DNA from: a virus
IMG/VR virus record: IMGVR_UViG_3300029319_000222
Coordinates: 13,934-34,191 of that record
Reading direction: 5' to 3' (one strand)
DNA length: 20,258 nucleotides
Shown here: in pieces, positions 3,001 through 20,099 of the stretch
Layout of the letters: each line of letters starts with the position of its first letter
How positions within the stretch are numbered: position 1 is the stretch's first letter
The notes under the pieces: model-generated
Seen by the model: the letters and a program-made list of their open reading frames with translations, nothing else
What the model was told of the DNA's origin: nothing
The model's database searches: none
Program-made: the position numbers and the translations under genes

Positions 3001-5448
3001 CAGGTCGGACCTAGCACAATTATTCACAATTATGTTGGATTTGGTAGTGTATTTAAGCACTTCTCACTTTCCAATGGTTCTGGATATAGAGACCCTGTTT
3101 CTATCGGTGTAACTGATTTAGCATTTGAGCATAAATTTGTACGCTCTGTTTCTGATTCAATCTTCGTTGGTTCTGCTGGAACTGATACATTCACAGCAAC
3201 TGATGCAGAATATACGTCACATACTGGCAAACTCTTGTTAACTATCCCATCTCATGGTTTAACAGTTGGTAATCAAATTGGTATTGATACTGGTGGAATT
3301 ATTTTCACATGTTCTGAAGATAATTTCTTTACCGAACAACCATATCCAAGAGCAACTGATCCAGTTGCTGGTATCACTACAGAAGTTACCTCAGTAACTA
3401 CAAATACCATTACGGTCAATGTTGGACCTGGTGGTGGTGCAGGAACAGGTGCAGAAATTTCTGCAACGGTTGGTATAGGTGGAACACTAATCTTTAGTAT
3501 TGATAATGGTGGTTCTGGATATGTAAATCCAAGGATTCAAATTCCTGAACCAACATATGAAAATATGGAGGTTGTCGGCGTATCAAGACTTGGAGTTGGT
3601 GCAACTACAACAACAGGTGAAAATCTGTTGATGAATGTTACTATTGGTGCTGCAGGAACTAATGTTGGCATTGGTTCAACTCTCTTCGAAGTTGAGTCTT
3701 TCAACATTAGAAGAAATGGATATGCATTCCAGGTTGGAGATGTATTTAAAATAGTTGGTCTTGTTACGGCATCACATCTGAGCGAACCAATTTCAGACTT
3801 TGAACTCGAAGTTACTGAAATTTTCAATGACTCAATGTCATCTTGGTCATTTGGTGAAATGAACTATATTGATAGTATTGAAGCATTCCAAGATGGTTCA
3901 AGAAAGAGATTCCCATTGATTTATCAAGGTGAACTCTTAAGTTTTGAATTAGATCCTAATAATGCACTTTCAAATGAGATTGATTTGAATGCAGTTTTAG
4001 TTATTTTTGTTAATGGTGTTCTTCAAGAACCTGGTTCTTCTTACGTATTTGAAGGAGGAACATCCTTCTTATTCGATCAGGCACCATCAGATTCTGATAA
4101 GGTTGATATTTTCTTCTATCTTGGTCAAGATGGTGTTGATGTCATTATTGTTGATGTTGAAGAAACATTTAAAATTGGTGATGAAGTTCTGGTTAAGAAG
4201 CATCCTAATTTTAATTTAACAAAAGATCAGAATAGAGATAGAACAATTTTTGATATTTTATCTGCAGATACACTTGAAACTGATATCTATCTTGGTCCAG
4301 GTATCAATGAAAATGATTTCAAACCAATCAGTTGGACTAAGCAAAAACTTGATAAGTTTGTCAAGGGAGATTTTGTTTATAAGACAAGAGATTCTATTGA
4401 ACCAAGAATTCTTCCAACAGCAAAGGTAATTGGTGATGTTGATGCAAGCACTGATCAAATTTTTGTTGATAACGCACAATTCTTCAATTATGAAGAAAAT
4501 AACTATGCAATTTCAATTAACTCTTTTAAAGGATTACTTGTAGAAGGAGTAAATCCAGTTTCTGCTGCAATCACAGCAACTGTTGGTGCTTCTGGAACAA
4601 TTAGTGCTCTTACAATTAATAATGTTGGTTCTGGTTATTCTGGTACTACGCTTGATGTTAAATTTACAGCACCTTTAGATATTGGTGTTGGTGTTGGTAC
4701 GACTGCAACTGCTACTGTAAGCATTGTTAATGGTTCTATTGACTCTGCAACTATCACAAATATAGGTTTTGGTTATTCTGTTATCAATCCTCCTCAAGCA
4801 ATTGTTGAAGTTCCCAAAGGAAAACAGGAATTGGTTGAAAATATTGTAAATATTGAAGGATTTACTGGTATTATTACTGGAATTAGTACAACTACAGGTA
4901 CTGGTGATTGTGGAATGGCACTCAATATTGATTATGATCGTATTGATTTTGCCAATAATTCTAGCGCAACTAATAGTTTGGTTGCAGGATATCCAGTCTA
5001 TGTCTATGAAACTTCAGTTGGTCACGGAGTAACTACTGTTGATGGAAATGATAGTTCTACCGTTGGTATTGGAACAACTTTCTTGGATGCTGTTTATATG
5101 GTACAAGCTGTTTCAAATAGTGGAAACAAAGGTAGGATAACTTGTAACATCCATGGAAATACCAATATTGTTGGTATTGCGACAACAGGATTGTATTTAC
5201 CCAACAATCCTGGTGCTACAATTTCCGCAGGTAAATTATCTTGGGGAAGATTATATAATGGAGGTGGTTCAATAACTAGAAATAATCCAATTTCAATAGG
5301 AGTAACTGGTCTCATAATTGATTCTGGATTATCTACATTCCCAACAATTCAAAGAAGAGACTTTGGATTTAAGAGTAGTGGCGCATTAAGGAAATTATCA
5401 AATGGTCCTGATGCAACTGAAAATTCTTCTGGTTTTACTATATTATAA
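1..5448 (+). CDS. Giant virion structural protein (T4 gene 7 position), 5' end outside window
   Basis: The reading frame is open from base 1 to the TAA at 5446-5448, giving 1815 residues with no start in view. A TTG at 346 is only an internal codon, because the 115 codons before it are open and similar in character. The product is rich in Gly, Thr, Ser, Ile and Val, with no signal peptide or membrane segment seen, which fits a beta-rich virion protein. Internal modules include three VNGVxQxP-type segments (near 1861, 2470 and 4000), two FTCS-containing segments (near 2890 and 3300) and several G-x-G-Y repeats (near 3080, 3510, 4625 and 4765). It lies directly upstream of gp8, where T4 has baseplate wedge gene 7, and large structural proteins occupy this place in marine T4-like phages. 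I see no convincing residue match to T4 gp7, so the baseplate role is inferred from position only. It could instead be a separate tail-fibre-like protein. Confidence 0.85.
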   Translation, partial: KNFADVGITSAVDSGVGLAGTTKAISVLDVFSESKVWTINNFDVAVDDDVRKNTSGADQSKFLKLGNRKLANYTECRTNRVLIHDDISGQFSSKGFQGNSIEIEEINIADTNVKYLIQVVNPDTLDVQLSELIAQTTSLDSYLFEKNLAVSAGLSTNTNQKLGEFSLNIQNEIKTLLFTPTDPFNTDLDIKILKKRYSNSFAGIGTQTVGSIDLVNSNVLGITSVGTASSEKALYEIDSSNFNAAFVSFEMINRFDLGDFVNIEAFIDFDGTDTYLSEYYFDSNTLSYSSSNVGIITAIYDGVGIITVSVKNPGIETSTYDVRSNIIEFTQSGADDTYRFLRTGQPATSERSALLDCVSDTHAGITTIAEYNKSVISSVSSIVRVSVGSSSALHQVTALCDGSQVTVIPGAFVATAGAAGLGTFGGKIRGNDFFVNFYPDDSSANYTTQSFNEVFYTLSDFDNVPNTLTYNSLQQDMFLSSFDAFNGSRASKTAFNLRHEGVPIYEKVFNPADTNVLDPVTGTFTINNHFFNTAEELIYTPGTTFVGVGKSEVGIGETSNYLGVVVDQLPERVYPIVTNSNTFRLATTKEFAEAGIAVTFTNLGEGNAHKLEFTKKLSKTVIGLDGIVQQPITFTPVSHILENNGFFNVAGVGTIPVGLSTFNISGISSIQPRDLLRIDDEYMKVVEVGLSTNVAGELLGPINGIIQAGSAATFNTVSVVRASVGSTAAPHNDGATVQIYRGSFNIVGSKVHFTDPPTGSARTRRDESNLPFVTSEFSGRTFLRSNYDTNMVFDDISNQFTGVGQTFTMKVGGADTTGVDIGNGILFLNGVFQTPTTINNLGNNYQFENSSALGISSVVFSGITSENGSYIQSEFDINQNQLPRGGLIVSLGSTPGLGYAPLHGAKVKADLTNGTITDIVGVNTYRKPVGITTADYNNITGVIEIETSSNHYLKGGERVQLVGLHFTCSQAYTGITTTIFPDHDRSFDIVNILSANKLTVQVGPSTIIHNYVGFGSVFKHFSLSNGSGYRDPVSIGVTDLAFEHKFVRSVSDSIFVGSAGTDTFTATDAEYTSHTGKLLLTIPSHGLTVGNQIGIDTGGIIFTCSEDNFFTEQPYPRATDPVAGITTEVTSVTTNTITVNVGPGGGAGTGAEISATVGIGGTLIFSIDNGGSGYVNPRIQIPEPTYENMEVVGVSRLGVGATTTTGENLLMNVTIGAAGTNVGIGSTLFEVESFNIRRNGYAFQVGDVFKIVGLVTASHLSEPISDFELEVTEIFNDSMSSWSFGEMNYIDSIEAFQDGSRKRFPLIYQGELLSFELDPNNALSNEIDLNAVLVIFVNGVLQEPGSSYVFEGGTSFLFDQAPSDSDKVDIFFYLGQDGVDVIIVDVEETFKIGDEVLVKKHPNFNLTKDQNRDRTIFDILSADTLETDIYLGPGINENDFKPISWTKQKLDKFVKGDFVYKTRDSIEPRILPTAKVIGDVDASTDQIFVDNAQFFNYEENNYAISINSFKGLLVEGVNPVSAAITATVGASGTISALTINNVGSGYSGTTLDVKFTAPLDIGVGVGTTATATVSIVNGSIDSATITNIGFGYSVINPPQAIVEVPKGKQELVENIVNIEGFTGIITGISTTTGTGDCGMALNIDYDRIDFANNSSATNSLVAGYPVYVYETSVGHGVTTVDGNDSSTVGIGTTFLDAVYMVQAVSNSGNKGRITCNIHGNTNIVGIATTGLYLPNNPGATISAGKLSWGRLYNGGGSITRNNPISIGVTGLIIDSGLSTFPTIQRRDFGFKSSGALRKLSNGPDATENSSGFTIL

Positions 5449-5481: not shown

Positions 5482-7041
5482 ATGTCAGCTATTGTTACCG
5501 ATCAATTTAGAATTCTGAATGCAGGCAATTTTGTCGAATCGGTTGAAAATACGTCCAACTCTTATTACATTACTGTAGGTCTACCAAATCCAACTATTAC
5601 TGGATATGGTAGAACTTCTGATTGGAATACTTCACCACCAGCACCATTAGATAATCAAACCAATAATACACACGCTGGTGATGTTGTATTGTTTGGTAAA
5701 AAAATATCTTCTGCAAATGTTAAACGTATTGTTAGAAGAGTTGATTGGGTTGCTGGAAGTAGATATGAGATGTATAGGGATGATTACAGTATCGAATCTC
5801 CCTCACCACTAACTAATGCCGCAAGATTATATGACGCAAATTATTATGTAATTAATTCAGATTTTAGAGTCTATATTTGTATAGAGAATGGTTCTAGTGG
5901 TACCAATCCAAAAGGAAATGTATCGCAAGATGAACCAACATTTACAGATTTAGAACCAACTAGAGCTGGCACCAGTGGTGACGGATATATTTGGAAATAC
6001 TTATTCACAGTTTCTCCAAGTGATATTGTTAAATTTGATTCTACAGAGTATATTACTTTACCGAGTGATTGGACAACAACGTCCGATACTCAAGTGCAAG
6101 CAGTAAGAGACTCTGCAAATTCAAATACTAATCTCAATCAAATTAAAACAGTTTATATTGACAAAGCTGGCGGTAATTATGCCAGTGGATTAAGTCAAGA
6201 GATGAATATTATTGGTGATGGAACTGGTGCAAAAGTCAGAGTTGATGTTGAGAGTGGTAAAATTACAAAAACTGTAGTTACTGCAGGTGGAAAAGATTAT
6301 TCTTATGCTCTTGTAGACCTTGGTTCTATTAACTCTAATACAACTGGCACCAGCGCAAAACTTATACCAATAATTCCTCCATCTAAAGGTCATGGTGATG
6401 ATGTTTATTTGGAGTTAGGTTCTGACAAAGTTTTAATCTATGCTAGATTTGATGATTCAACTAAAGATTTCCCAGTTGATACCAGTTTTGCACAAGTTTC
6501 AATTGTAAAAAATCCAACAGCAGTTGGAACAAATAATATTTTTACAGGTGCAACTTTTAGTGGATTGAATTCTATAAAATTTTCATCAATTACTGGAACT
6601 CCTATAATTGGAGAAAAAATTGAACAGAGTCTTACTAATAATGTAGGAAAAGCATATGGATATGTTTCTTCTTATGATTCTGAAACAAAGGTTCTTAAAT
6701 ATATACAAGACCGTTCATTATATTTCAATCAAACTACTCTAGATCATCAAGATTATGTGGGTATTTCTACTAATGGTAGAAATTACGCTTTTGAATCAAG
6801 TGCTAATTTGATTACTGGACAATCATCTTCATTTAGTGGTTCCGTAGATCTCAATTTTTCGGGCATAACCACAAATCCAACAGGAAGTAAACTTATTAAT
6901 CTTGGTGTTAACTTCACAAGTGGCATGTCCGTTCCTGAAATAAATAAAGGGTCAGGACAAATAATTTATCTTGATAATAGACCTAGTATTGCTAGGAACT
7001 TGAGACAAAAAGAAGACATTAAAATTATACTGGAATTCTAA
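5482..7041 (+). CDS. gp8: gp8 baseplate wedge subunit
   Basis: This is the T4 gp8 homologue, a component of the baseplate wedge that assembles with gp7, gp10, gp6 and gp53. Blocks shared with T4 gp8, as I recall its sequence, are: AIVTDQFR (residues 3-10), RRVDW (85-89), GDGYIWKYLF (166-175) with an EYI.LP segment just after (189-194), a Q-[VI]-SI-[VI].NP block near 338-345, and the C-terminal YLDNRP plus I..F ending (495-519). The protein is 519 residues against about 334 in T4. The extra length falls between residue 220 and the C-terminal block and contains a glycine-rich repeat (230-275) and a GEKI-type module (about 375-405). The ATG follows the late promoter closely but has no clear Shine-Dalgarno sequence. 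The next gene starts 3 bases after its stop. Confidence 0.93.
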   Translation: MSAIVTDQFRILNAGNFVESVENTSNSYYITVGLPNPTITGYGRTSDWNTSPPAPLDNQTNNTHAGDVVLFGKKISSANVKRIVRRVDWVAGSRYEMYRDDYSIESPSPLTNAARLYDANYYVINSDFRVYICIENGSSGTNPKGNVSQDEPTFTDLEPTRAGTSGDGYIWKYLFTVSPSDIVKFDSTEYITLPSDWTTTSDTQVQAVRDSANSNTNLNQIKTVYIDKAGGNYASGLSQEMNIIGDGTGAKVRVDVESGKITKTVVTAGGKDYSYALVDLGSINSNTTGTSAKLIPIIPPSKGHGDDVYLELGSDKVLIYARFDDSTKDFPVDTSFAQVSIVKNPTAVGTNNIFTGATFSGLNSIKFSSITGTPIIGEKIEQSLTNNVGKAYGYVSSYDSETKVLKYIQDRSLYFNQTTLDHQDYVGISTNGRNYAFESSANLITGQSSSFSGSVDLNFSGITTNPTGSKLINLGVNFTSGMSVPEINKGSGQIIYLDNRPSIARNLRQKEDIKIILEF

Positions 7042-7044
7042 AAA

Positions 7045-10000
7045 ATGCCACAGAAGACTAACTTAAACGTAAATCCTTACTATGATGATTTTGATAAGGA
7101 TAATAATTTTTATAAGGTTCTTTTCAAACCTGGATTTCCCGTTCAGGCAAGAGAACTAACAGGTCTTCAATCTATTCTTCAGAATCAGATAGAGTCCTTC
7201 GGAACACATATGTTCAAAGAAGGTTCTATGGTGATTCCTGGTGGAATCACATGTGATAATGAATTTACTACTATCAAGGTAAATGAGACTCATTTGGGTC
7301 TAGATATTAGCATTTATCTAGATGCTCTTATCAATGCCAATGATGGTAAAGGTACAGAGGTAAGAGGTCAAGATACTGATATAACTGCAACAATTAAGGG
7401 ATATGTTCTCCCACCAAACGAAGATGCGGAAGAGATTACGCTTTTTGTAAAATATAACACATCAGCAGAAGATGGTGAGACTGAATTCTTTGCCAACTCT
7501 GAAGTATTACTTATTGAAGAGAACGTAACTTATGGTAATACTACTTTAAATGCGGGAGATACTATTCTTTCTTTGGTGGCAAATGATGCCTCAAATATTG
7601 GATATTCCGTAGGAGTTGCTGCTGGCGTTTATTTTATAAGAGGATATTTTGTTGATGTTCCAGACACACAGATAGTTCTTGATTTGTATGATAATCAACC
7701 ATCATATAGAGTTGGTTTTGAAGTTTTAGAGCAGGTAGTTAATTCTGATCAAGATATATCACTGAATGATAACGCTAAAGGATTTACTAATTTTGCTGCA
7801 CCTGGTGCAGATAGATTTAAACTTAGCACTAGACTAACCAAAAAAGGATTACAAGATTTCAACGATACCAACTTTATTGAACTTGTAAAAATTGATAATG
7901 GTGAGATTAAAAAGTTAGAAGCAAAGACTGAATATAATTTTATTAAAGATTACTTTGCCAAGAGAACCTTTGAAGAATCTGGAAACTATGCTGTTGATAA
8001 TTTTACCGTAGATGTTTTAGATTCTTTGAATAATGAGACTGGTGGTGCTGGTCTTTTTGCAGAAAATCAGCTCACTGATGAAGGAAATAGTCCTAGTGAC
8101 GACTTGATGTGTATCAAGGTTTCTGCAGGAACTGCATATGTTAAAGGATATGATGTAGATTTGGTTGGATCAACTATTATTGATGTCCCAAAACCAAGAA
8201 CCACTAAATCTATTGCAGAAACTAGAGTTCCCTTCCAAATGGGAAGTCTTCTTAAAGTTCATAACGTTACTGGTGTTCCATATATTTCTATTGGAACACA
8301 AGCAGGACAAAATACATCCGATAATGTAATTGAATTATTTGATAGGATAAGAAATACTGCTACAAATAACGCAGGAACTGGTAGAAAGATTGGTGAAGCC
8401 AGAATTTATTGGTATGGTGTAAGTGACGCAGCGTATGAAGGTGCTACAACCAACTGGGATTTGTATCTTTTTGATGTTCAGACATATACTGATGTTTATG
8501 TATCAAGTAATATAAGCAACAATAATGTAATTCCTCTTGGTTCATATGTAAGAGGTCTTTCTAGTGGTGCTACGGGATATATTGATAGTAAGAGAAGTCC
8601 TTTATGTATGAGTTTGACACAAACTTCTGGTGTTTTCCAGAGAGGTGAACAAGTTATTGTTAATGAAATTGAAGAGTATACCTTTGGTGTAACTGCTGTT
8701 GAAGAATTTACTGTAGAAGATATTAAATCTGTTTATCAAGATTCAACAGGTCTTGATTCAAATATTCAAAGAGACTTTATTGCAGATACAATTCTGTATG
8801 AAAAAGGTTTACCTGACTTTAGTAAGAATGATAAGTTAATTGTAAGTGGTAGCAATACTGGTCGAGTTCCTGGAAGATTCTTTGCGGGTGTAACTGGAAT
8901 TAAAACGGGTGCAATCTTAAAATATCAAAATGCATCTGGATCTGATCCAAACTTTAACGTTATTACTGGAATTAATGCTACTGGAAATGAATTGGATTTA
9001 GCGCAAGGAGCTAATAATTCTATTACAGGAATTTTTAACAATAATGTAACTAACGGTGAATCAAACTTCTCATTGATGGTTCCAAAGATTCTGAATTCAC
9101 AGCAATCTGGTCTTTATGCAGAACTTCCAAGATTTACTGTATCTTCTGTAGATTTATCTGATGCAGAGTTATCTATAACAAGACAAATTACTGGACAGTC
9201 TACTGACAGTAATGGTCAAATGACACTTAGCGTTGCAGATTTCTTAGGAGGTTCTGTTGGTATTAATAGTGTATTCTTCCAATCATTTGATGCTGAAAGA
9301 TATTCTATTCACTATTCAAATGGTACTACAGAATCTTTGACTTCTGACCAGTTTACATATGGTGCAACTCAAATCACATTTAAAGGTCTGACTGCCAGCC
9401 AAAGTAATGTTACTGTTATTGGAACTTTACTAAAAACTGATGTTACTCACAAAACAAATGATTACGTAAAGAGTAATATTGTTTCTATTACCAGAACAAC
9501 TGGAAAATCCCCAGCTACTGCAGGTTTAACTACAAGTAAGTTTTATGGATTGAGAATTGAAGATGAGGAGATTTCACTGAATACTGCAGATGTTGTTAAT
9601 GTTGTTGCAGTGTATGAATCAACTAATGATGCCGCACCAGTTTTAGATTCTTTAACTTTTGCAACTGGTCTTGCTTTAGATCAAAGTGTAATTATTGGTG
9701 AAAAAATTGTAGGTCAAGATAGTAGAGCAATTGGTCAAGTTGTAAATGTTACTGCAACCACCGTTGAATATGTTCCTCTCAATGATAATGATTTTGCAGT
9801 TGGTGAAGAAGTTCTATTTAAGAGTTCATCATTAAATTTACTGATTCAAGAAACCACGCCTGGTAGTTACGTTGATAGAACTGATAACTATTTTCTTGAT
9901 AAAGCAAATACAAACCAAATTGTAGATTATTCACGTATTAGAAGAAGAGATGGATTTGCAATTCCAACAAAACAATTGCAAATTATCTACAATCAATATA

Positions 10001-13000
10001 GAGTAAGTGCTGGTTCAACAATCGGTGGAGATGTCTTCACAGTTAATTCTTATACTGCTGACAGATATAAGAGCGACATTCCATCAGTAGTAAATGGTAC
10101 CAGAGTATCTGATCTTCTTGACTTTAGACCAAGAGTAAGAGATTTTGATGCATCAGCAGCAACAATGTCTCCATTTACTTATGATGCAAGAGAGTTTTCA
10201 ACAAATTATAGATTTGTTGTCACACCAGAAGAAACTACTAGAGTTGGTCTTAGTTACTATCTTCCTAGAGTTGATTTAGTATCAATTAATCGTCTTGGTC
10301 AGGTAGAAGTTATTCAAGGAGAACCAGCGGAAGATCCTCAAATACCAGATCTTGCAGATGATGCAATGGAAGTTGCTCTTATTGCATATCCAGCATATCT
10401 TTTTAATCCTACTAAAGATGCGGGAATTCTGTTGAGAGACAACAGAAGATTCACAATGAGAGACATTGCGAAACTTGAAGAAAGAATTGAAAATCTTGAG
10501 GAAGTTACTTCTTTAAGTCTTCTTGAACTTAACACTGCTACGTTAGAAGTTACGGATGCAAACGGATTGAATAGATTTAAGTCAGGATTTATTGTTTCTG
10601 ACTTTAAAGATAAGTCTCTTGCAGATCCAAAATACACTAGACTAGACATTAACTCAGAACAAAATATGGGTATTTCACCCGTTGAGTTCTGGTCTATTAA
10701 TGCGGAACTCGGATGGGATCCTTCAGTCGATGTTGAAAATGATGATCTTGATGAAAATCTTCCATTATCTGATAAGAATATTCAGAAATCTGGAGATTTA
10801 CTTACACTTGCATATAAAGAGGTTAATTTCTTAGATCAACCACATGCAACTAATGTTGAAAATGTAAACCCATTTAATGTTATTGTTTATGTTGGTGGTA
10901 TTCAATTAACTCCACCATCCGACAACTGGACTCGTACAATTTATATTAATAATAAGAGAACAGAATCTACAGGTGCTAAATGGATACAACAGGCGTCTGT
11001 TCATACGGATGTTGATCAAAAAGTTGAATATGTAACCTACAAGAAGGGCAAAGGTAGAAATGAGAAGAAAACTAGAAAATTCGTTACCACAACTACCACA
11101 AAGACTACCACATATAAACCAAAACTTATAGGACCATCTAAAGAATTTGATTATGTTGAGAATGTCAAAATTACTAGTACTGTAGATCCATTTATGCGTT
11201 CTAGGGAAGTATACTTCCTTGCAAATGGTCTGAAACCAAATACAAAGCACTATCACTTCTTAGATAGTCAACAAGTTGATATTATTCCAAAGTTGGTTAA
11301 AATTGATATGCAGTCTGGAACTTTCCAGAAATATGAGAAAGTTGATATTTTTAAAGGTGGAAAGAAAATTGGTCATATGAAGCTCAAAGAACCAAATCAT
11401 AAATTTGGTAATCAAGTCACTAAGATGGGTGTTATCAATCCATCCACTTATGAAACATATAGCATCAATCCATATGACAAGAATGGTTCTGCACCACCAT
11501 CAAATTATTCTGCTACCTCTAAACTTCTTAATTTTGACCTTAAAAAGTTAGCAAATAAAGAGAATTTTTATGGATACATTACAAAAGGTTGTAAAATTGT
11601 AGGTAAAACAAGTGGAGCTGTTGCTAAGGTTAAAAACTTTGAATTAATTAGTGATAACTGGGGAGATATTTTAGCATGTTTCCACTTCCGTGATCCAAAT
11701 AAAAAACCAGCACCACCAGTAAAAGTTAAGAGTGGAACTAAGACAGTAAAAGTTACTGCTGTTCCTCCAGGTGTAACACCACTTCCAGGTTCTACTACAC
11801 AAGCATCAGAAGCTATTGGTAGTTATAGTGGTTCTGGTACTATTATTACACAAGAACAAGATATTGTTAAAGTCAGAAATCCACCCAAACCAAAGGCAAA
11901 GAAACCTAAGGTTGAAGTTACTGTTAAGGCACCACATAGAGACCCTCTTGCACAAACTTTCCTTGTTGATGGTACTGGAATATTCCTTACCTCATTTGAC
12001 TTATTCTTTGCAAAGAAAGATCCTAAAAAGAAAGTCTTTATTGAACTTAGAACAGTAGAATTAGGTACTCCCACAAACCTCCTTGTTCAAGATTTTACAC
12101 AAATTGCTTTAAATCCTAAGGATATTAAAATCTCCAATGATGCTTCTGCAGCAACAACTGTCAGATTCCCATCACCAGTATATCTTGAAGCGGATAGAGA
12201 ATATGCAATTGTTATTCTTGCACCTGCTTCCGATAAGTATGAGATGTGGACAGCAACTATGGGTCAGAAAACTGTTCAATCAGCAATTCTTCCTAACTCA
12301 GAAAATGTTGTTGTTGCTAAGCAATACATTGGTGGATCTCTATTTAAATCTCAAAATGGTACAATTTGGACTCCTAATCAGTACCAAGATTTAACTTTCA
12401 AAATCAGAAAGGCAGAGTTTGTCGAAAAAGGCACACTGATTGCATATAATAGTGGTATTGGACCTAAGGGTTCAAATTCCTCTGATCTTCCTAAGAATCC
12501 AATTGAACTTCTTCCAAGAAAGTTAAAAGTAAGATGTGAAGGTTCTACTGCAGCAGATTCTACAAACTTCACTCCAGGAACAATGGTTGGAGTTGATGGT
12601 AATAATGATTTATATGGATTTATTGAGAATGTTGGTGGTGGTCTTGTATTAGGTACAAATTCTGGAGAGATTGCAAATCCTGGTATTGGATATAGTGCTA
12701 GTGCAACTCCAGACCTAGTAAGTCTTTACACTCTTACTGGTAAGGGTAGTGGAGCAACTGCCAAAGTAACCACAAATGGAAGTGGTGAAGTTACTGAGAT
12801 TGATATTCTTACTCGCGGTGAAGGATATGCAGTTGGTGATTTGTTAGGAATCACAACAGCACATGTTCAAAAAGGTAGTGGTGCGATTTTCGCAGTCAAT
12901 AATATTGGTGTTACCAGTACTCTGTATCTGAATAACGTGCAGGGTGAACACTTCCCAGTAGGTGTACGACTTCAACGTTATACTACAGATTATCTCTTAA

Positions 13001-14418
13001 GTTCCAAGACTTCTGGTTCTGCAAACTTTGTTGTTGAATCATCATCAATAATTGATGATAGATTTGATGGCAATGTTATGAAGATTACTCAATACAATCA
13101 TGCACATCATGGTGCAAATAATGATATACAAATTGTTGATGTACAACCAGATAGAGAGAAAGTCAAAATAACTGCTAATTTTGGTAAAAATGCAACTGTT
13201 GTTTCTGTTGCAGATACAACACCATTTGCTACTTATGAAGGTATCTCAACTTCTGGCGGATATGCAAAAATTTCGAATGAAATTGTTGAATATAGTGGCA
13301 TTAGTAATACTTCAGGTAATGCTGGTACTTTAACCATTGTTAAGAGAGGAGTTGATTCTACAACTCAAACTGCACATGATACTAGTGATTTTATTCAACC
13401 ATATGAAGTTGGTGGAGTTAATTTGAGAAGAATTAACACAACTCATGATTTGCCTGCGACTTACTACGTTGATGATAATGATAATATCGATCATTATCAT
13501 TTAAGATTTAATAGAAGTACTTCATATTCTAGTAGAGATGCTGGTGGAAGTATGATAAACTTCAATGGACAAAAGGCAGTTGGTAATAATAATGTTGGAA
13601 TTTCGCAAAACTACCAATTTAGTTCTCTTACCGCACAGTTTAATTATATTACTCCAGGAAAAGGTACTAAAATTAAAGCGTTAGTAAGAACCATTTCTGG
13701 AACTAGTGCTGGCGGAAATGAAGTTTCATTCATTGATCAAGGTTATGAACCAATCAATATTAATAAAGTAAAACATTTTGATACTCCTAGATTGGTTGCA
13801 TCAAATGTTAATGAAACAGAACAACTTACAACACTGCCTAGAAATAAGTCATTGACTTTACGTGTTGATTTTTCATCAAAAGATAAGAATCTTTCCCCAG
13901 TAATGGATATTCAGAATGCAACTTGGGTTCTTGGTAGAAATAAAATTAACCATCCAGTTGATGATTATGTTAACGATGCTAGAGCAAACACTTTAAACAA
14001 TGATCCTCATAGCACTGCCTTTGTTACAAGAATGGTATCTCTTGAAGAACCTGCAACTAGCTTGAAAGTTTATGTTGCAGCGTGTGTACAGGAGTTTGCA
14101 GATATGAGAGTTCTTTATAGACTTCATAGGTCAGATTCTGCAGAAATTGATCAAGCATTTGTTCCATTCCCTGGTTTTGATAATACCAAAGATACTGACG
14201 GTGATGGATATGGAGATCAAATTATTGATCCAGTTAAAAATAGTGGAAGACCAGATGCTAAAATGTCTGCAAATGATCCAGAAACTTTCTCAGAATATCA
14301 ATTCTCTGTAAATAATCTGGAACAATTTGATGGATTTAGTATTAAGATTGTTACTTCTTCCACTAACGAGTCCACACCAGTTAAACTGAAGGACTTTAGA
14401 TGTATCGCACTCGCATAA
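7045..14418 (+). CDS. DUF4815-type giant tail/baseplate structural protein
   Basis: A 2457-residue virion protein of the DUF4815 type common in marine T4-like phages. The N-terminus carries the family signature: a YYDDFD segment near residue 13, then KPGFPVQARELTGLQSILQ (about 28-46) and FKEGSMVIPGG. A second landmark is RDIAKLEERIENLE (1139-1152), probably a short coiled coil, followed by TSLSLLE. DPFMRSR and GLKPNTKHYHF lie near 1376-1400. A Lys/Thr-rich stretch (about 1328-1361) and a Pro/Lys-rich linker (about 1552-1632) precede a DPLAQTFLVD segment (1633 on) that runs to about 1795 and resembles a widespread phage tail domain. GE-x-I...SGA modules and two G-x-G-Y repeats are scattered through it. 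Near the C-terminus is an acidic D-x-D-x-D-G loop (2383-2391), and the protein ends in CIALA. It probably forms peripheral baseplate or fibre structure where T4 has genes 9-12. The family assignment rests on remembered motifs; the exact role is inferred. Confidence 0.85.
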   Translation: MPQKTNLNVNPYYDDFDKDNNFYKVLFKPGFPVQARELTGLQSILQNQIESFGTHMFKEGSMVIPGGITCDNEFTTIKVNETHLGLDISIYLDALINANDGKGTEVRGQDTDITATIKGYVLPPNEDAEEITLFVKYNTSAEDGETEFFANSEVLLIEENVTYGNTTLNAGDTILSLVANDASNIGYSVGVAAGVYFIRGYFVDVPDTQIVLDLYDNQPSYRVGFEVLEQVVNSDQDISLNDNAKGFTNFAAPGADRFKLSTRLTKKGLQDFNDTNFIELVKIDNGEIKKLEAKTEYNFIKDYFAKRTFEESGNYAVDNFTVDVLDSLNNETGGAGLFAENQLTDEGNSPSDDLMCIKVSAGTAYVKGYDVDLVGSTIIDVPKPRTTKSIAETRVPFQMGSLLKVHNVTGVPYISIGTQAGQNTSDNVIELFDRIRNTATNNAGTGRKIGEARIYWYGVSDAAYEGATTNWDLYLFDVQTYTDVYVSSNISNNNVIPLGSYVRGLSSGATGYIDSKRSPLCMSLTQTSGVFQRGEQVIVNEIEEYTFGVTAVEEFTVEDIKSVYQDSTGLDSNIQRDFIADTILYEKGLPDFSKNDKLIVSGSNTGRVPGRFFAGVTGIKTGAILKYQNASGSDPNFNVITGINATGNELDLAQGANNSITGIFNNNVTNGESNFSLMVPKILNSQQSGLYAELPRFTVSSVDLSDAELSITRQITGQSTDSNGQMTLSVADFLGGSVGINSVFFQSFDAERYSIHYSNGTTESLTSDQFTYGATQITFKGLTASQSNVTVIGTLLKTDVTHKTNDYVKSNIVSITRTTGKSPATAGLTTSKFYGLRIEDEEISLNTADVVNVVAVYESTNDAAPVLDSLTFATGLALDQSVIIGEKIVGQDSRAIGQVVNVTATTVEYVPLNDNDFAVGEEVLFKSSSLNLLIQETTPGSYVDRTDNYFLDKANTNQIVDYSRIRRRDGFAIPTKQLQIIYNQYRVSAGSTIGGDVFTVNSYTADRYKSDIPSVVNGTRVSDLLDFRPRVRDFDASAATMSPFTYDAREFSTNYRFVVTPEETTRVGLSYYLPRVDLVSINRLGQVEVIQGEPAEDPQIPDLADDAMEVALIAYPAYLFNPTKDAGILLRDNRRFTMRDIAKLEERIENLEEVTSLSLLELNTATLEVTDANGLNRFKSGFIVSDFKDKSLADPKYTRLDINSEQNMGISPVEFWSINAELGWDPSVDVENDDLDENLPLSDKNIQKSGDLLTLAYKEVNFLDQPHATNVENVNPFNVIVYVGGIQLTPPSDNWTRTIYINNKRTESTGAKWIQQASVHTDVDQKVEYVTYKKGKGRNEKKTRKFVTTTTTKTTTYKPKLIGPSKEFDYVENVKITSTVDPFMRSREVYFLANGLKPNTKHYHFLDSQQVDIIPKLVKIDMQSGTFQKYEKVDIFKGGKKIGHMKLKEPNHKFGNQVTKMGVINPSTYETYSINPYDKNGSAPPSNYSATSKLLNFDLKKLANKENFYGYITKGCKIVGKTSGAVAKVKNFELISDNWGDILACFHFRDPNKKPAPPVKVKSGTKTVKVTAVPPGVTPLPGSTTQASEAIGSYSGSGTIITQEQDIVKVRNPPKPKAKKPKVEVTVKAPHRDPLAQTFLVDGTGIFLTSFDLFFAKKDPKKKVFIELRTVELGTPTNLLVQDFTQIALNPKDIKISNDASAATTVRFPSPVYLEADREYAIVILAPASDKYEMWTATMGQKTVQSAILPNSENVVVAKQYIGGSLFKSQNGTIWTPNQYQDLTFKIRKAEFVEKGTLIAYNSGIGPKGSNSSDLPKNPIELLPRKLKVRCEGSTAADSTNFTPGTMVGVDGNNDLYGFIENVGGGLVLGTNSGEIANPGIGYSASATPDLVSLYTLTGKGSGATAKVTTNGSGEVTEIDILTRGEGYAVGDLLGITTAHVQKGSGAIFAVNNIGVTSTLYLNNVQGEHFPVGVRLQRYTTDYLLSSKTSGSANFVVESSSIIDDRFDGNVMKITQYNHAHHGANNDIQIVDVQPDREKVKITANFGKNATVVSVADTTPFATYEGISTSGGYAKISNEIVEYSGISNTSGNAGTLTIVKRGVDSTTQTAHDTSDFIQPYEVGGVNLRRINTTHDLPATYYVDDNDNIDHYHLRFNRSTSYSSRDAGGSMINFNGQKAVGNNNVGISQNYQFSSLTAQFNYITPGKGTKIKALVRTISGTSAGGNEVSFIDQGYEPININKVKHFDTPRLVASNVNETEQLTTLPRNKSLTLRVDFSSKDKNLSPVMDIQNATWVLGRNKINHPVDDYVNDARANTLNNDPHSTAFVTRMVSLEEPATSLKVYVAACVQEFADMRVLYRLHRSDSAEIDQAFVPFPGFDNTKDTDGDGYGDQIIDPVKNSGRPDAKMSANDPETFSEYQFSVNNLEQFDGFSIKIVTSSTNESTPVKLKDFRCIALA
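14191..14217 (+). other. Acidic DxDxDG calcium-type loop near the C-terminus of the DUF4815 protein
   Basis: Residues 2383-2391 read DTDGDGYGD, the spacing seen in thrombospondin type-3 and related calcium loops, followed by Asp 2395. The final acidic ligand is one residue later than in the canonical 12-residue loop, so the match is near, not perfect. Confidence 0.5.
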
Positions 14419-15068: not shown

Positions 15069-16769
15069 ATGGCAAGTATTATTAGGATCAAAAGATCCTC
15101 AGGCACTTCTAAACCATCAAGCCTGCAGTGGGGTGAATTTGGATATGTAACTGGTATTGGTAGTTATGGGGGAACTAACCAATATAAGGACAGAATTTTC
15201 TTAGGAGATGATGGTACTAATGCCAACCCAGTAGGTGGATTTTATTACACCTCAATGATGGAGCACACCCCAGGTGCTATCCAGGGTGTTCAAAATACAA
15301 GAAATTCAGATAATGGTGTTGTTGCTGTTCTTGCTCCATCATCAAATAGTGGTTTAGGTGGAGCAGATTCACTTAAAGTTGATCAGTGGAACGTAGATAA
15401 TATAAGAATTGATGGAAACGTAATTTCATCAACAGACACTGATGGTGATATTGATCTCGATCCTAATGGTTCTGGTGAGGTCCACATCCCAGACGATACA
15501 TTCCTGTCATTTGGTGATGATAAAGATGCAAAAATTGAATATGATGAAGACGGTGTTAATCAGTTAACCTTTACTGGTGCTGATATAAGAATCAATATTG
15601 CAACAGAGTCTGATACCAAAGATACTGGTGCTCTGATTGTTGAGGGTGGTGTTGGTATTGAGAAAAACCTCAACGTTGGAGGAAATCTCAATCTTGAAGG
15701 TGGTGCCGTCATCGATGACATCAAAATTCAAGATAATGTCATATCTTCACTCTCCGATAGTAGTGACACTCTATACTTAGATCCGTATCCTGATGGATTA
15801 AGTAATGAGGGTACTGTTATTATTAAAGGTAGTCTTCAAGTTGATGGTACAACAACATCGATTAATTCTACAACATCAACACTAAATGATCCAATTTTTC
15901 ACATTGGTGATTTAACTAGTGAAAGAACCGTAATGACAACGGTTGTTTCTGGTGTTAGTACTATCAGATTAGATTCTGTTGTTGGTATCAATACTGGTGA
16001 TATTGTATCTGGTAATGCAGGTCTGAATGCAGGTGCTGCAAATACGGTTTCATCATATGATACTGCAAATAAGATTATTACTCTGCAGGATGCCACTATT
16101 TCTGGTATTGCAACTGCAACTCAATTAACTATTACTCATGCATTTGATACTAATACCGATAGAGGTATTTCTTTTGCATATAATGACAGTCAATCACAAG
16201 TTGGTGGTGGAACCACTGGCAATAAGACTGGTTTCTTTGGATATATTGACCAAGGAAATGTTGGAAGTGGAGCAACAAACAGATCTTGGACCTATATTCC
16301 AGAAGCAACTATTGCAAATAGTCTTGTAAGTGGAACAAGAGGATACTTAGATATCAAAGGTATCTACTACCAGACCGGTGATTTTAATCACAATGGAATG
16401 GTTTATTTTGACGTTGATGGTCTTCAGACTTCAACGAACGCACCATCTTCTGCAGTTTCTGCTTCTAAGCAAGTAATGACTGCAATCACGAAGAGAGTCT
16501 TGAATCTTCCTAGTAATGTCACTTTAGCAGAAGGTGATATTGTTAGACAAGATACTAGCGATGCATATGGTGTTGTTGAAAGTGCAGTAAGTAATGCTGC
16601 TACAGTTCCTCTTGTTGGTGTTGAAGGAACTTTCAATACTACAAATAATTTGAGAAAAGAAGGTGATAATGGATTTATTGCAAATCTATCCGTAGTTCCT
16701 AGTAGTGTTGGTGTGATATATACTGATAGACCACATTGGACCGATACTCTTGATGGAGGTACTTTCTGA
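15069..16769 (+). CDS. Fibre-like virion structural protein, 566 residues
   Basis: The N-terminus (IIRIKRSSGTSKPSSLQWGE, residues 4-23) is the sort that opens many marine phage structural or fibre proteins. Further landmarks are an acidic TDTDGDIDLDPNGSGEV stretch (122-138), LSFGDDKDAKIEYDEDG (146-162), a run of Gly/Asn beta-type turns (185-225), a DGTTTSINSTTS segment followed by NDPIFHIGD (259-281), and DRGISFAYND then GFFGY (about 363-390). This order matches proteins annotated as tail-fibre-like or structural in T4-like cyanophages, as I recall them. The ATG has GGAGG 11 bases upstream (15053-15057). It lies two genes before gp13, where T4 encodes the short tail fibre and fibritin, so a fibre or whisker role is plausible but is inferred from position. 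It ends in LDGGTF. Confidence 0.85.
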   Translation: MASIIRIKRSSGTSKPSSLQWGEFGYVTGIGSYGGTNQYKDRIFLGDDGTNANPVGGFYYTSMMEHTPGAIQGVQNTRNSDNGVVAVLAPSSNSGLGGADSLKVDQWNVDNIRIDGNVISSTDTDGDIDLDPNGSGEVHIPDDTFLSFGDDKDAKIEYDEDGVNQLTFTGADIRINIATESDTKDTGALIVEGGVGIEKNLNVGGNLNLEGGAVIDDIKIQDNVISSLSDSSDTLYLDPYPDGLSNEGTVIIKGSLQVDGTTTSINSTTSTLNDPIFHIGDLTSERTVMTTVVSGVSTIRLDSVVGINTGDIVSGNAGLNAGAANTVSSYDTANKIITLQDATISGIATATQLTITHAFDTNTDRGISFAYNDSQSQVGGGTTGNKTGFFGYIDQGNVGSGATNRSWTYIPEATIANSLVSGTRGYLDIKGIYYQTGDFNHNGMVYFDVDGLQTSTNAPSSAVSASKQVMTAITKRVLNLPSNVTLAEGDIVRQDTSDAYGVVESAVSNAATVPLVGVEGTFNTTNNLRKEGDNGFIANLSVVPSSVGVIYTDRPHWTDTLDGGTF

Positions 16770-16966: not shown

Positions 16967-17812
16967 ATGGCAAAACCATCAACTAGACAAGGTTTAATTG
17001 ACTATTGCTTACGTCAACTTGGTGCTCCCGTTTTAGAAATTAACGTGGATGATGATCAAATTGATGATCTAGTTGATGACGCCATTCAATATTTCAACGA
17101 ACGTCACTATGACGGCGTTGAAAAGATGTATTTAAAATATCAAATAACACAAGACGATGTAGATCGTGGTCAAGCAAAAGGTACTTCTGGTGTTGGTATT
17201 GTAACTACTACGGCAACATCCACATCAATTAGTGGATATGGTACAACAACATCAAGTTTTTACGAAACATCCAACTTTATTCAAGTACCAGACTCTGTTA
17301 TTGGTGTTGAAAGAATATTTAAGTTTGATACTAATAGTATTTCTGGTGGAATGTTTAGTATCAAATATCAACTTTTCCTGAATGACTTATATTATTTCAA
17401 CTCAGTTGAACTCTTACAATATGCAATGACAAAGAGTTATCTTGAAGATATTGATTTCTTATTAACTCCAGATAAACAGATTAGATTTAACAAAAGACAA
17501 GATAGATTATATCTTGACATTGATTGGGGTTCTCAAACAGCAGGAGAGTTTATGGTTTTAGAATGCTATAGAGCATTAGACCCTGAATCATTTACTCAGA
17601 TTTATAATGATAGTTGGATGAAACAATATCTTACTGCACTTATCAAGAGACAGTGGGGAAGAAACCTCAGCAAGTTTAGAGGAGTAAAACTTCCTGGTGG
17701 AATTGAATTAAACGGGGGAGAAATTCTTCAACAAGCAGAATCCGAATTGTCAGATATCAAAGCAAGAATGATGTCTGAATATGAATTACCACCCTTAGAC
17801 TTTATTGGATAA
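16967..17812 (+). CDS. gp13: gp13 neck protein
   Basis: Homologue of T4 gp13, which with gp14 forms the neck that closes the filled head and joins it to the tail. Shared blocks, as I recall T4 gp13, are LGAP (residues 18-21), DDQIDDLVDDAI (29-40) with the following HYDG (47-50), W.K.Y.TAL (217-225) and LPGGIELNG (242-250) followed by a helical, charged end. The length of 281 residues is close to the roughly 309 of T4. A Thr/Ser-rich stretch (76-102) replaces the corresponding T4 region. The start is supported by an AGGAG just upstream. The stop overlaps the gp14 start by one base (TAATG), implying translational coupling of the two neck proteins. Confidence 0.95.
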   Translation: MAKPSTRQGLIDYCLRQLGAPVLEINVDDDQIDDLVDDAIQYFNERHYDGVEKMYLKYQITQDDVDRGQAKGTSGVGIVTTTATSTSISGYGTTTSSFYETSNFIQVPDSVIGVERIFKFDTNSISGGMFSIKYQLFLNDLYYFNSVELLQYAMTKSYLEDIDFLLTPDKQIRFNKRQDRLYLDIDWGSQTAGEFMVLECYRALDPESFTQIYNDSWMKQYLTALIKRQWGRNLSKFRGVKLPGGIELNGGEILQQAESELSDIKARMMSEYELPPLDFIG

Positions 17813-19254
17813 TGGCTCTTAATCCCTTTTTTCTCCAAGGTACACAGTCTGAGCAAAGACTTGTTCAGGATATAATTAATGAGCACCTAAGATTTCATGG
17901 TGTAGAAGTAACATATATTCCAAGAAAATTTGTAAATAAGAAGACTGTAATTGAAGAAGTGCAGTCGTCTAAGTTTGATGATAATTTTGCGATTGAGGCA
18001 TATCTTAACACATATGATGGGTATGGTGGTGCAGGAGATATCTTAACAAAGTTTGGTGTAAGTATAAGAGATGAATTAATACTTACAATTTCAAAAGAAA
18101 GGTTTGAAGATTTTATTGCCCCATTTATGGCAGGCATTGATGATGGAACAGAAGATAGTGAATTGCCAACGCCAACAAGACCTAGAGAAGGTGATTTAGT
18201 TTATTTCCCTCTAGGACAAAGGTTATTTGAAGTAAAGTTCGTAGAACATGAAGATCCATTTTTCCAATTGGGAAAGAATTATGTTTATCAATTAAAGTGT
18301 GAACTCTTTGAATATGAAGATGAAGTTCTTGATACATCAATTCCTGAAATTGACACTCAAATTCAAGATGAGGGTATTCTGTCCACCCTTAAATTAATTG
18401 GTGTTGGTAAAACTGCTACTGCAATTGGTATTATACAAGGAACAGAAACTAGTGGATATATTAAAGAAATATTCTTAAATAATGATGGTTCTGGATATAC
18501 TTCACCACCAACAATTGGATTTACAACATCACCAACAAATCAATCTGGTGATACTCCAGAAGCAATAGGAATTCTCACAACCAAATCTGGCGTTACATCT
18601 ATTGAAAAGATTTTACTCATCAATGCTGGTGCTGGATATACTGTTGCACCTACTATCACATTCTCTGGTGGTGGTGGAAGTGGTGCTGCAGCAACTTGTA
18701 GCATTATAACTACTGGTCAAGGTGTAATTAGATACAGTGTTACTGATGGTGGTGTTGGATATGGCACAGCACCTACAGTAACAGTTGCAGCACCTCCTGC
18801 AAGTGGAATTAGTAGCACTGCTGTTGGTATTGCATCTATTGGTCTCGATTCTGCTGGTGACAGTGTATTGAAAGCGATTTATGTTGCTGACCCAGGTAGA
18901 GGATATAGTAATGCACCAACAGTTACTATCGGAGATCCAGAAGCACTTAGTGGTCTTGGAACATATCTCTTCAATGAAGTTATTGTTGGAGAAAGATCCA
19001 AGACCGAAGCTAGAGTTAAAGCTTGGGATAAAGATACAAATATACTTAAAGTATCTAATGTCAGCATTGGTTCTACTCAACGTGGATTCTCCCCAGGAGA
19101 AACTATTAGAGGAAAAGACTCTGGAGCAGAGTATCCATTACAGTCTTTCTCTCAAGATGATATATACAATGAGTATAGTGAAAATGATATATTCGAATCT
19201 GAAGCAGATAATATCTTAGACTTCACTGAATCTAATCCCTTTGGAACATTCTAA
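17812..19254 (+). CDS. gp14: gp14 neck protein with a large beta-repeat insertion
   Basis: Homologue of T4 gp14, the partner of gp13 in the neck. Matching blocks are GVEVTYIPRKFV (residues 30-41), AYLNTYDGY (63-71), FGVSIRDELILTIS (81-94), EGDLVYFP (126-133) and DPFFQLGKN (148-156). The C-terminus ESNPFGTF recalls the SSPF ending of T4 gp14. At 480 residues it is far longer than the roughly 256 of T4. The extra part lies between about residue 185 and 445. It holds four G-x-G-Y repeats (Tyr at 229, 276, 317 and 365, spaced 41-48 residues apart), then a module with AWDKDT and GETIRGKDSGA (403-439). The insertion probably makes a surface domain on the neck. Start and stop both overlap neighbours by one base, tying gp13, gp14 and gp15 into one translational unit. 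Confidence 0.95.
   Translation: MALNPFFLQGTQSEQRLVQDIINEHLRFHGVEVTYIPRKFVNKKTVIEEVQSSKFDDNFAIEAYLNTYDGYGGAGDILTKFGVSIRDELILTISKERFEDFIAPFMAGIDDGTEDSELPTPTRPREGDLVYFPLGQRLFEVKFVEHEDPFFQLGKNYVYQLKCELFEYEDEVLDTSIPEIDTQIQDEGILSTLKLIGVGKTATAIGIIQGTETSGYIKEIFLNNDGSGYTSPPTIGFTTSPTNQSGDTPEAIGILTTKSGVTSIEKILLINAGAGYTVAPTITFSGGGGSGAAATCSIITTGQGVIRYSVTDGGVGYGTAPTVTVAAPPASGISSTAVGIASIGLDSAGDSVLKAIYVADPGRGYSNAPTVTIGDPEALSGLGTYLFNEVIVGERSKTEARVKAWDKDTNILKVSNVSIGSTQRGFSPGETIRGKDSGAEYPLQSFSQDDIYNEYSENDIFESEADNILDFTESNPFGTF
18427..18939 (+). repeat. Four degenerate G-x-G-Y protein repeats within gp14
   Basis: Residues about 206-376 of gp14 contain four copies of a unit with the core [N/D]-x-G-x-G-Y-x-x-x-P-T-[IV]-x-[FVI]. 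The Gly-Tyr cores fall at 18493-18498, 18634-18639, 18757-18762 and 18901-18906. The copies differ in sequence, so this is an old protein-level repeat and not a recent DNA duplication. Similar units occur in the giant structural protein and in the DUF4815 protein. Confidence 0.75.
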
Positions 19255-20099
19255 TGCTAGGAACTTATTACTATCACGAAATAGTTAGAAAGACAATCAT
19301 ATCTTTCGGAACATTATTTAACGACATTCATGTACGCCACCAAGACAAAAGTGGTAATGATATTAGTGACTTAAAAGTTCCTCTTGCATATGGTCCTGTC
19401 CAAAAGTTTCTGGCAAGATTAGAACAGCAAGCAGAATTGAACAAAGCAGTTCAGATTACTCTACCAAGAATGTCATTTGAGATGACATCCATTGCATATG
19501 ATTCTACAAGAAAGTCAAGTCTTGTACAGACTTTTAAAACTTGTGATGATGGAAGTAAGGTAAAAAAGGTTTTTATGCCTGTTCCATATAATATTGGATT
19601 TCAACTAAACATTCTTTCTAAGTTGAATGATGACTCTCTTCAGATTTTAGAACAAATATTACCTGTTTTTCAACCACATTTTAATCTTACTATAGACTTA
19701 GTAGAATCAATTGGAGAAAAAAGAGATGTTCCAATTATTCTAGATTCTGTAAATTTTCAAGATGATTATGAAGGTTCTTTTGATACTAGAAGAGCACTTA
19801 TCCACACATTGAATTTTACAGCAAAAACATATCTGTTTGGTCCTATCGCAGACAGCAGCGATGGTCTCATTCGTAAGGTTCAGGTTGATGTGTATAGTAG
19901 TACTGACAGAAGTATTGCTAGACGTGAAATGAGATATACAGTTGAACCTGTTGCAAAGGTTGATAAAAATAATGATGGTGTTGTTGATGCTGCAGATAAA
20001 CCATTACTTATGCCAGGTGATAATTTTGGATTTGACGAAGAATGGGAATTTTTAGGAGACGGTAAAACTTATAGTCCAACTCGTCAAACTGATATTTAA
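19254..20099 (+). CDS. gp15: gp15 tail completion / sheath-stabilising protein
   Basis: Homologue of T4 gp15, which forms a ring at the end of the completed tail, stabilises the sheath and connects to the neck. Matching features are the Y..F-rich N-terminus with a TLFNDI block (20-25), LPRMSF (70-75), QILEQILPVFQPHFN (130-144, the clearest match), KRD..I.L (156-163) and a GLIR segment (204-207). The length of 281 residues is close to the roughly 272 of T4. Unlike T4, the C-terminal part contains a loop fitting the 12-residue EF-hand/dockerin pattern (237-248), then DNFGFDEEWEF. The ATG overlaps the gp14 stop by one base, and gp16 begins 5 bases after its stop. Confidence 0.95.
   Translation: MLGTYYYHEIVRKTIISFGTLFNDIHVRHQDKSGNDISDLKVPLAYGPVQKFLARLEQQAELNKAVQITLPRMSFEMTSIAYDSTRKSSLVQTFKTCDDGSKVKKVFMPVPYNIGFQLNILSKLNDDSLQILEQILPVFQPHFNLTIDLVESIGEKRDVPIILDSVNFQDDYEGSFDTRRALIHTLNFTAKTYLFGPIADSSDGLIRKVQVDVYSSTDRSIARREMRYTVEPVAKVDKNNDGVVDAADKPLLMPGDNFGFDEEWEFLGDGKTYSPTRQTDI
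19962..19997 (+). other. EF-hand/dockerin-like calcium loop coded in the gp15 C-terminus
   Basis: Residues 237-248 of gp15 read DKNNDGVVDAAD. This fits the canonical calcium loop exactly: Asp at 1, Asn at 3, Asp at 5, Gly at 6, Asp at 9 and Asp at 12. It is a single copy, whereas dockerins usually have two, so binding is only a prediction. Confidence 0.55.

Follow-up and report, generated by a model that had tools for sequence, protein, structure and literature searches.

The DNA analyzed here (the window, 20.3 kb) forms part of a 34,191-base IMG/VR virus record. By its gene order and its best matches, it stands next to Prochlorococcus phage P-SSM2 (Kyanoviridae), in which gp14 and gp7 are the same genes in the same order (65% identity in gp14) and from which it differs in detail only, as a close relative would. 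The window encodes the C-terminal part of baseplate protein gp7, gp8, a DUF4815 protein, a protein without assigned family and, after the latter, gp13, gp14 and gp15. The genes and features that concern the GxGY repeat are collected in Table 1.

Table 1. Genes of the window and features related to the GxGY repeat
Feature	Position in window	Strand	Evidence or remark
gp7, C-terminal part	1-5448	+	phrog_2885; the giant 5' protein of the sequence-only reading
One GxGY unit in gp7, residues 1149-1191	3445..3573	+	profile-profile 87.3%; gp14-only profile iE 0.015
Two GxGY units in gp7, residues 1521-1610	4561..4830	+	profile-profile 97.9%; gp14-only profile iE 0.0003 and 0.0019
gp8	5482-7041		
Two degenerate units in gp8, residues 214-276	6121..6309	+	profile-profile 88.3%
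DUF4815 protein	7045-14418		
Two units in DUF4815 protein, residues 1876-1937	12670..12855	+	profile-profile 94.0%
Protein without assigned family	15069-16769		
gp14 neck / head-closure protein, 480 aa, bears the unit array	17812..19254	+	Pfam T4_neck-protein E 2.2e-30, residues 3-186; phrog_460 head closure
Conserved neck domain, gp14 residues 3-176	17818..18339	+	aligned with solved T4 gp14 9mkb, E 2.1e-24; VIA Z 11.1 to 9lu7
GxGY unit 1, gp14 residues 205-248	18424..18555	+	unit profile iE 8.6e-12 (profile includes unit)
GxGY unit 2, gp14 residues 252-296	18565..18699	+	unit profile iE 4e-13 (profile includes unit)
GxGY unit 3, gp14 residues 292-336	18685..18819	+	unit profile iE 9.3e-10 (profile includes unit)
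GxGY unit 4, gp14 residues 348-384	18853..18963	+	unit profile iE 1.6e-9 (profile includes unit)
Second shared module, gp14 residues 383-445, F..GE...G..SGA type	18958..19146	+	profile-profile comparison
Conserved C-terminal tail of gp14	19207..19251	+	D470, F471, N475-G478 invariant in 82 sequences

The unit array of gp14 and its copies in neighboring proteins

The GxGY core occurs in gp14 at residues 226, 273, 314 and 362, with spacings of 47, 41 and 48 residues and a P-T-type stretch after each. Four occurrences compare with 0.23 expected, and none of 2000 shuffles reached four. The four units described in the sequence-only reading are thus borne out, and the repeat is a genuine protein module. 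Repetition at the DNA level was weak (at best 70% over 60 nt). The second shared module that follows the units matched, in profile-profile comparison, two regions of the DUF4815 protein (811-900, 93%; 451-540, 92%) and one of gp8 (361-450, 78%).

In the alignment, the units follow the neck domain and precede the conserved C-terminal tail, the position of an insert. The T4_neck-protein domain was present in all 82 gp14 sequences of the invariance alignment (the window plus 81 of 95 non-redundant gp14). Solved T4 gp14, homologous and similar in fold to residues 3-176, could be aligned with that region only. The neck domain is common to T4-like phages, whereas the gp14 units were found in cyanophage gp14 only; T4 gp14 has none, and a whole-genome search with the unit profile found none in T4-like phage RB51 or in LIMEstone1 (Ackermannviridae). 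The proposal that the units occupy segments absent from T4-like proteins therefore held. The C-terminal part of T4 gp14 (178-256) is described as disordered before tail docking and in contact with gp15 thereafter (PMC12270204), which suggests that the cyanophage insert adjoins the neck-tail joint.

The array differs among phage groups. By a loose motif, which took in 245 of 250 gp14 open reading frames (ORFs), exactly four units were present in 58 of 78 P-SSM2-like and 64 of 78 S-SM2-like proteins. The S-RIM8-like gp14 is a shorter version, with one motif match in 79 of 80 sequences and two units by profile in the three reference phages of that type.

Copies outside gp14 had been proposed in gp7, gp8 and the DUF4815 protein. 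A profile made from the gp14 units only recovered the gp7 copies at nt 4627, 4765 and 3511 (iE 0.0003, 0.0019 and 0.015); a broader profile that includes these units gave 4.6e-9, 2e-8 and 2.5e-7. The gp14-only profile was weak on gp8 (0.15) and on the DUF4815 protein (0.059). Because short units score poorly alone, we divided the other genes into 90 sliding windows, gave each a profile built with its own relatives and compared these with the profile of gp14 residues 205-385. The highest match was gp7 1501-1620 (97.9%), with two overlapping neighbors at 95.8 and 95.0%, followed by DUF4815 1861-1980 (94.0%), gp8 181-300 (88.3%) and gp7 1141-1260 (87.3%). All ten sliding windows above 20% overlapped unit sites and the next best stood at 4.2%; the scan gave no match in gp13, gp15 or the gene at 15069.

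These results upheld the claimed gp7 copies near 3510, 4625 and 4765, by both the gp14-only profile and the profile-profile scan, and lost the one near 3080. They also recovered, though with less force, the DUF4815 copies near 12685 and 12820 (94%) and the degenerate gp8 copies near 6165 and 6285 (88%). The unit profile alone was weak on both pairs, with iE 1.6 and 0.12 for the DUF4815 copies at nt 12682 and 12817, and 1.2 for gp8, where the core is altered to GGNY (nt 6169) and GGKDY (nt 6286).

A literal GxGY match was not accepted by itself as evidence of a copy. Literal matches in gp7 fall at residues 896, 1026, 1171, 1543 and 1589. The one at nt 3076 was rejected (profile-profile 2.5% and 0.7%, no match in the unit-profile searches), as was that at nt 2686 (0.8%). 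Literal matches at nt 5977 in gp8 and nt 14200 in the DUF4815 protein have surroundings unlike the unit copies and were dropped after the profile tests. By eye, the stretch DTDGDGYGD at window positions 14191-14223 (DUF4815, near residue 2386) looks like a calcium-binding loop rather than a GxGY unit; a DKNNDGVVDAADK stretch near the C-terminus of gp15 (about 19980-20020) has a similar appearance.

Spread and history of the family among cyanophages

With an iterated unit profile, eight reference cyanophages and the window (195 ORFs) yielded 81 hits at iE<0.01, and the same set reversed or locally shuffled yielded none. In an alignment of 56 of 80 units, identity to the first unit was 13-74%. 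Across 2446 ORFs a unit profile gave 1147 units at E<1e-3, a count that includes the training units and many loci from close relatives; reversed ORFs gave none at that threshold and four below 0.1. By frame, 827 units belong to gp14, 209 to gp7, 41 to gp8 and 11 to DUF4815 proteins, with 59 unassigned. At least one unit at this threshold was carried by 249 of 250 gp14 frames, 85 of 85 gp7, 41 of 112 gp8 and 11 of 199 DUF4815 frames, many of the last partial. Run lengths counted by motif pattern are underestimates, since variants such as GRSF are dropped.

Whole-genome searches placed units at 130 sites in the eight cyanophage genomes: 10 in P-SSM2, 14 in S-SRM01, 15 in P-TIM68, 14 in S-SM2, 15 in Bellamy, 24 in S-RIM8, 23 in ACG-2014d and 15 in S-WAM2. 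The record that contains the window has 10. Some of the sites, such as P-SSM2 216071-216307, are located beyond the virion block. A tblastn search with the gp14 repeat region returned 82 phage records, every one named for Synechococcus, Prochlorococcus or Marine, and no plasmid record. With one S-WAM2 fiber pair as query, 68 phage records were returned, nearly all of cyanophages and one of a Xanthomonas phage. Single pairs matched 18 PHROG families, among them baseplate wedge, head closure, tail fiber, baseplate hub and virion structural proteins. In ACG-2014d, a large structural protein (2059 aa, locus L088, 12938 onward) encoded between DUF4815 and gp13 also bears a unit.

The copies could in principle be beta turns rich in glycine whose common G, Y and P arose by chance or convergence. 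The units are indeed short and divergent, and those of gp8 and the DUF4815 protein are weak when taken alone. Set against this are the complete lack of reversed hits at E<1e-3 beside 1147 forward ones (training units included), and the 90-window scan, which singled out the unit sites. For gp14 and gp7 we regard chance or convergence as most improbable. That several structural genes share a common domain, as the sequence-only reading had it, is consequently retained, its copies outscoring reversed and locally shuffled sequence as well as other sequence rich in beta strands.

The other half of that proposal, that the domain gives a single phage matching surface patches, fared differently. It implies a cassette that spread recently through the virion genes, and two facts invite this view: the module occurs in several virion genes of one genome, and for gp7 unit 1 the closest relative is unit 4 of S-SM2-like gp14 (12 of 12). 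We sought recent copying between genes by nearest-counterpart and within-genome likeness tests and found none. The counterpart test drew on gp14 with exactly four detected units (two in S-RIM8-like phages), 12 per class. Units 1 and 2 of P-SSM2-like and S-SM2-like gp14 found their positional counterparts in 12 of 12 and 12 of 12 cases in one direction and in 9 of 12 and 12 of 12 in the other; unit 4 did so in one direction only (11 of 12), and unit 3 did not. Most of the array is therefore old. In eight genomes, gp14 and gp7 units of the same genome were no more alike than those of different genomes (mean 0.144 versus 0.148; permutation 0.81), which speaks directly against matching patches. 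Recent spread of a cassette is accordingly very hard to credit. The combination of positional orthologues with the absence of within-genome likeness argues instead for an old family that diverged slowly, and not for a cassette kept alike within each phage.

Relation to domain D3* of tail spike Dpo31

No model of Pfam or NCBIfam covers the GxGY repeat region. Searched against protein sequences of the PDB, the unit profile had one match, tail spike Dpo31 (E 0.0011). A two-unit profile (23 of 31 pairs in its alignment) placed the match at residues 445-513 of 828 (E 1.5e-5), the next sequence standing at 0.054. Profiles of gp14 pairs only and of gp7 pairs only reached the same place independently (17.6 and 24.5 bits), a result that also tells against chance resemblance. 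The all-pairs profile scored 27.8 bits on Dpo31 compared with at best 13.5 in 1000 shuffles, and with its columns reversed it gave nothing below 0.05. A single-sequence search of the PDB with the gp14 repeat region reached nothing solved (best E 1.5), and its two Tc-family chains (E 1.5-1.8) were taken as chance. The gp7 profile had a weak match to a pilin (9btq, E 0.012).

Dpo31 was located in the genome of Cobetia phage Carin-1. The matched segment falls inside D3* (residues 434-536), which the report on the spike describes as an inserted Ig-like domain that protrudes from the spike, with distant likeness to sugar-binding domains (weak DALI Z, 2.8-2.9; PMC13317679); the word cyanophage is absent from the main text of that report. 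D3* (28lx, 28mg, 8ck1) is a single inserted domain with two GxGY units at a spacing of 44 residues. The systems differ in that Dpo31 is a podovirus spike with depolymerase activity, whereas the units of the window lie in neck, baseplate and DUF4815 proteins of a T4-like cyanophage, four of them in gp14. On the evidence of profiles, the GxGY module is homologous to D3*. Since the pair profiles match within D3*, the simplest interpretation is one D3*-like domain for every two units, so that a pair probably forms one small Ig-like domain; runs of three units in gp7 of S-RIM8 and ACG-2014d mean that this is not a strict rule.

AlphaFold2 models of only fair quality predicted an all-beta array in gp14 (pLDDT 72.7, pTM 0.46) and in gp7 residues 1444-1815 (pLDDT 70.2, pTM 0.65). 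The first strand stops immediately ahead of GxGY in each model, the second is short and lies at about +7 to +12, and the third spans about +17 to +33, so that the predicted strand order relative to the core agrees between the two proteins, in line with a common domain. Some BFVD matches, A0A482IHF7_2 and A0A0C5AE77 among them, are common to the two models. For the repeat part, no solved structure was clearly matched by Foldseek or VIA, and Dpo31 was absent among the matches listed for both models. Below 0.001, Foldseek matched the gp14 model with T4 gp14 only; VIA gave small barrels at Z 5-6 for gp14 188-450, a level common for this tool that hints at units inserted in a barrel, and no row at Z 8 for gp7. 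An Ig-like fold of the cyanophage copies is suggested by the link to D3*.

Ig-like accessory domains are small beta domains found on diverse virion proteins of phages and are thought to aid adhesion. The units differ in that the Ig-like models of Pfam matched none of four window proteins (E<=1), 82 gp14 (E<=0.01) or 23 pairs (E<=1). The new elements are the GxGY family, how densely cyanophages carry it and its link to D3*. Tail, baseplate and neck proteins are documented to share domains in mosaic fashion (PMC10684548). In a literature search on the motif and on Ig-like domains in cyanophage virions, which drew mostly on listings of papers, the module appeared undescribed in cyanophages.

Putative roles and bacterial copies

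We propose, with a probability of roughly 60%, that the GxGY repeat is the core of a small accessory domain homologous to D3*, anciently inserted in cyanophage virion proteins and likely exposed, where it would bind weakly or act as a spacer. The domain would be all-beta, of about 90-100 residues and usually with two units, each predicted from gp14 and gp7 to run from strand A through the GxGY turn to a short strand B (P-T-I/V), a glycine-rich loop and strand C. Insertion would have occurred long ago in neck protein gp14, baseplate proteins gp7 and gp8 and the DUF4815 protein, in all of which the domain may lie at the surface. If gp14 forms a hexamer as in T4, six copies with about two domains each would surround the neck-tail joint. 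The most likely role would be to aid contact of the virion with the host surface or with extracellular polysaccharide. Adhesion or weak glycan contact is plausible given the protrusion of D3*, its faint likeness to sugar-binding domains (PMC13317679) and bacterial copies in glycan-related proteins (SusD, GH64). That the one homologous solved domain is inserted and protruding also fits the term decorative used in the sequence-only reading.

Alternatively, the inserts could be purely structural, serving as spacers or braces that add bulk to neck and baseplate and stabilize adjacent subunits with no binding to the host. Neither GxGY motif of the gp7 pair varies among 53 gp7 sequences (the window plus 52 of 80 gp7 loci), as for a load-bearing part, and units are present not only in fibers but also in gp7 and gp8, which are inner baseplate families. 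The protrusion of the solved homologue and the copies in unrelated exposed bacterial proteins point the other way, and we consider a purely structural role possible, if on the unlikely side.

A bolder version of the accessory-domain reading would make the GxGY pair its own glycan-binding family of phage virions and bacterial surface proteins, with the gp14 ring replacing the fibritin whiskers and collar of T4. Fibritin_C was found in RB51, the positive control, and in none of the eight cyanophage genomes. T4 fibritin binds domain III of gp13 according to PMC12270204, and the C-terminal half of gp13 is about 30 residues shorter in cyanophages than in RB51. LIMEstone1 lacks both Fibritin_C and the units, so that loss of fibritin and presence of units are not strictly coupled. 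We hold this extension to be speculative and rather improbable.

Some of the most abundant ocean viruses are cyanophages of this family. Their baseplate and fiber proteins are enormous and mostly unannotated, and with a single profile 10-24 units can now be marked in each of the eight cyanophage genomes. The link to a solved domain makes the question of what the inserts touch testable with one recombinant domain, and D3*, an orphan for the authors who described it, gains a family.

In one scan of bacterial genomes, the module was encoded at 10 loci in five phyla, in 11 ORFs of 2 to 16 units. A family scan of eight of these 11 ORFs identified SusD, a GH64 match, a phage tail sheath, fibronectin III, collagen-repeat and a multicopper-oxidase match, and two proteins without family. 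The Antarcticirhabdus protein of the phage-sheath family (L334:3506-5002) carries two GxGY units upstream of the sheath match, and the SusD protein of Sphingobacterium (L335:2329-4164) has two within its long SusD_RagB match.
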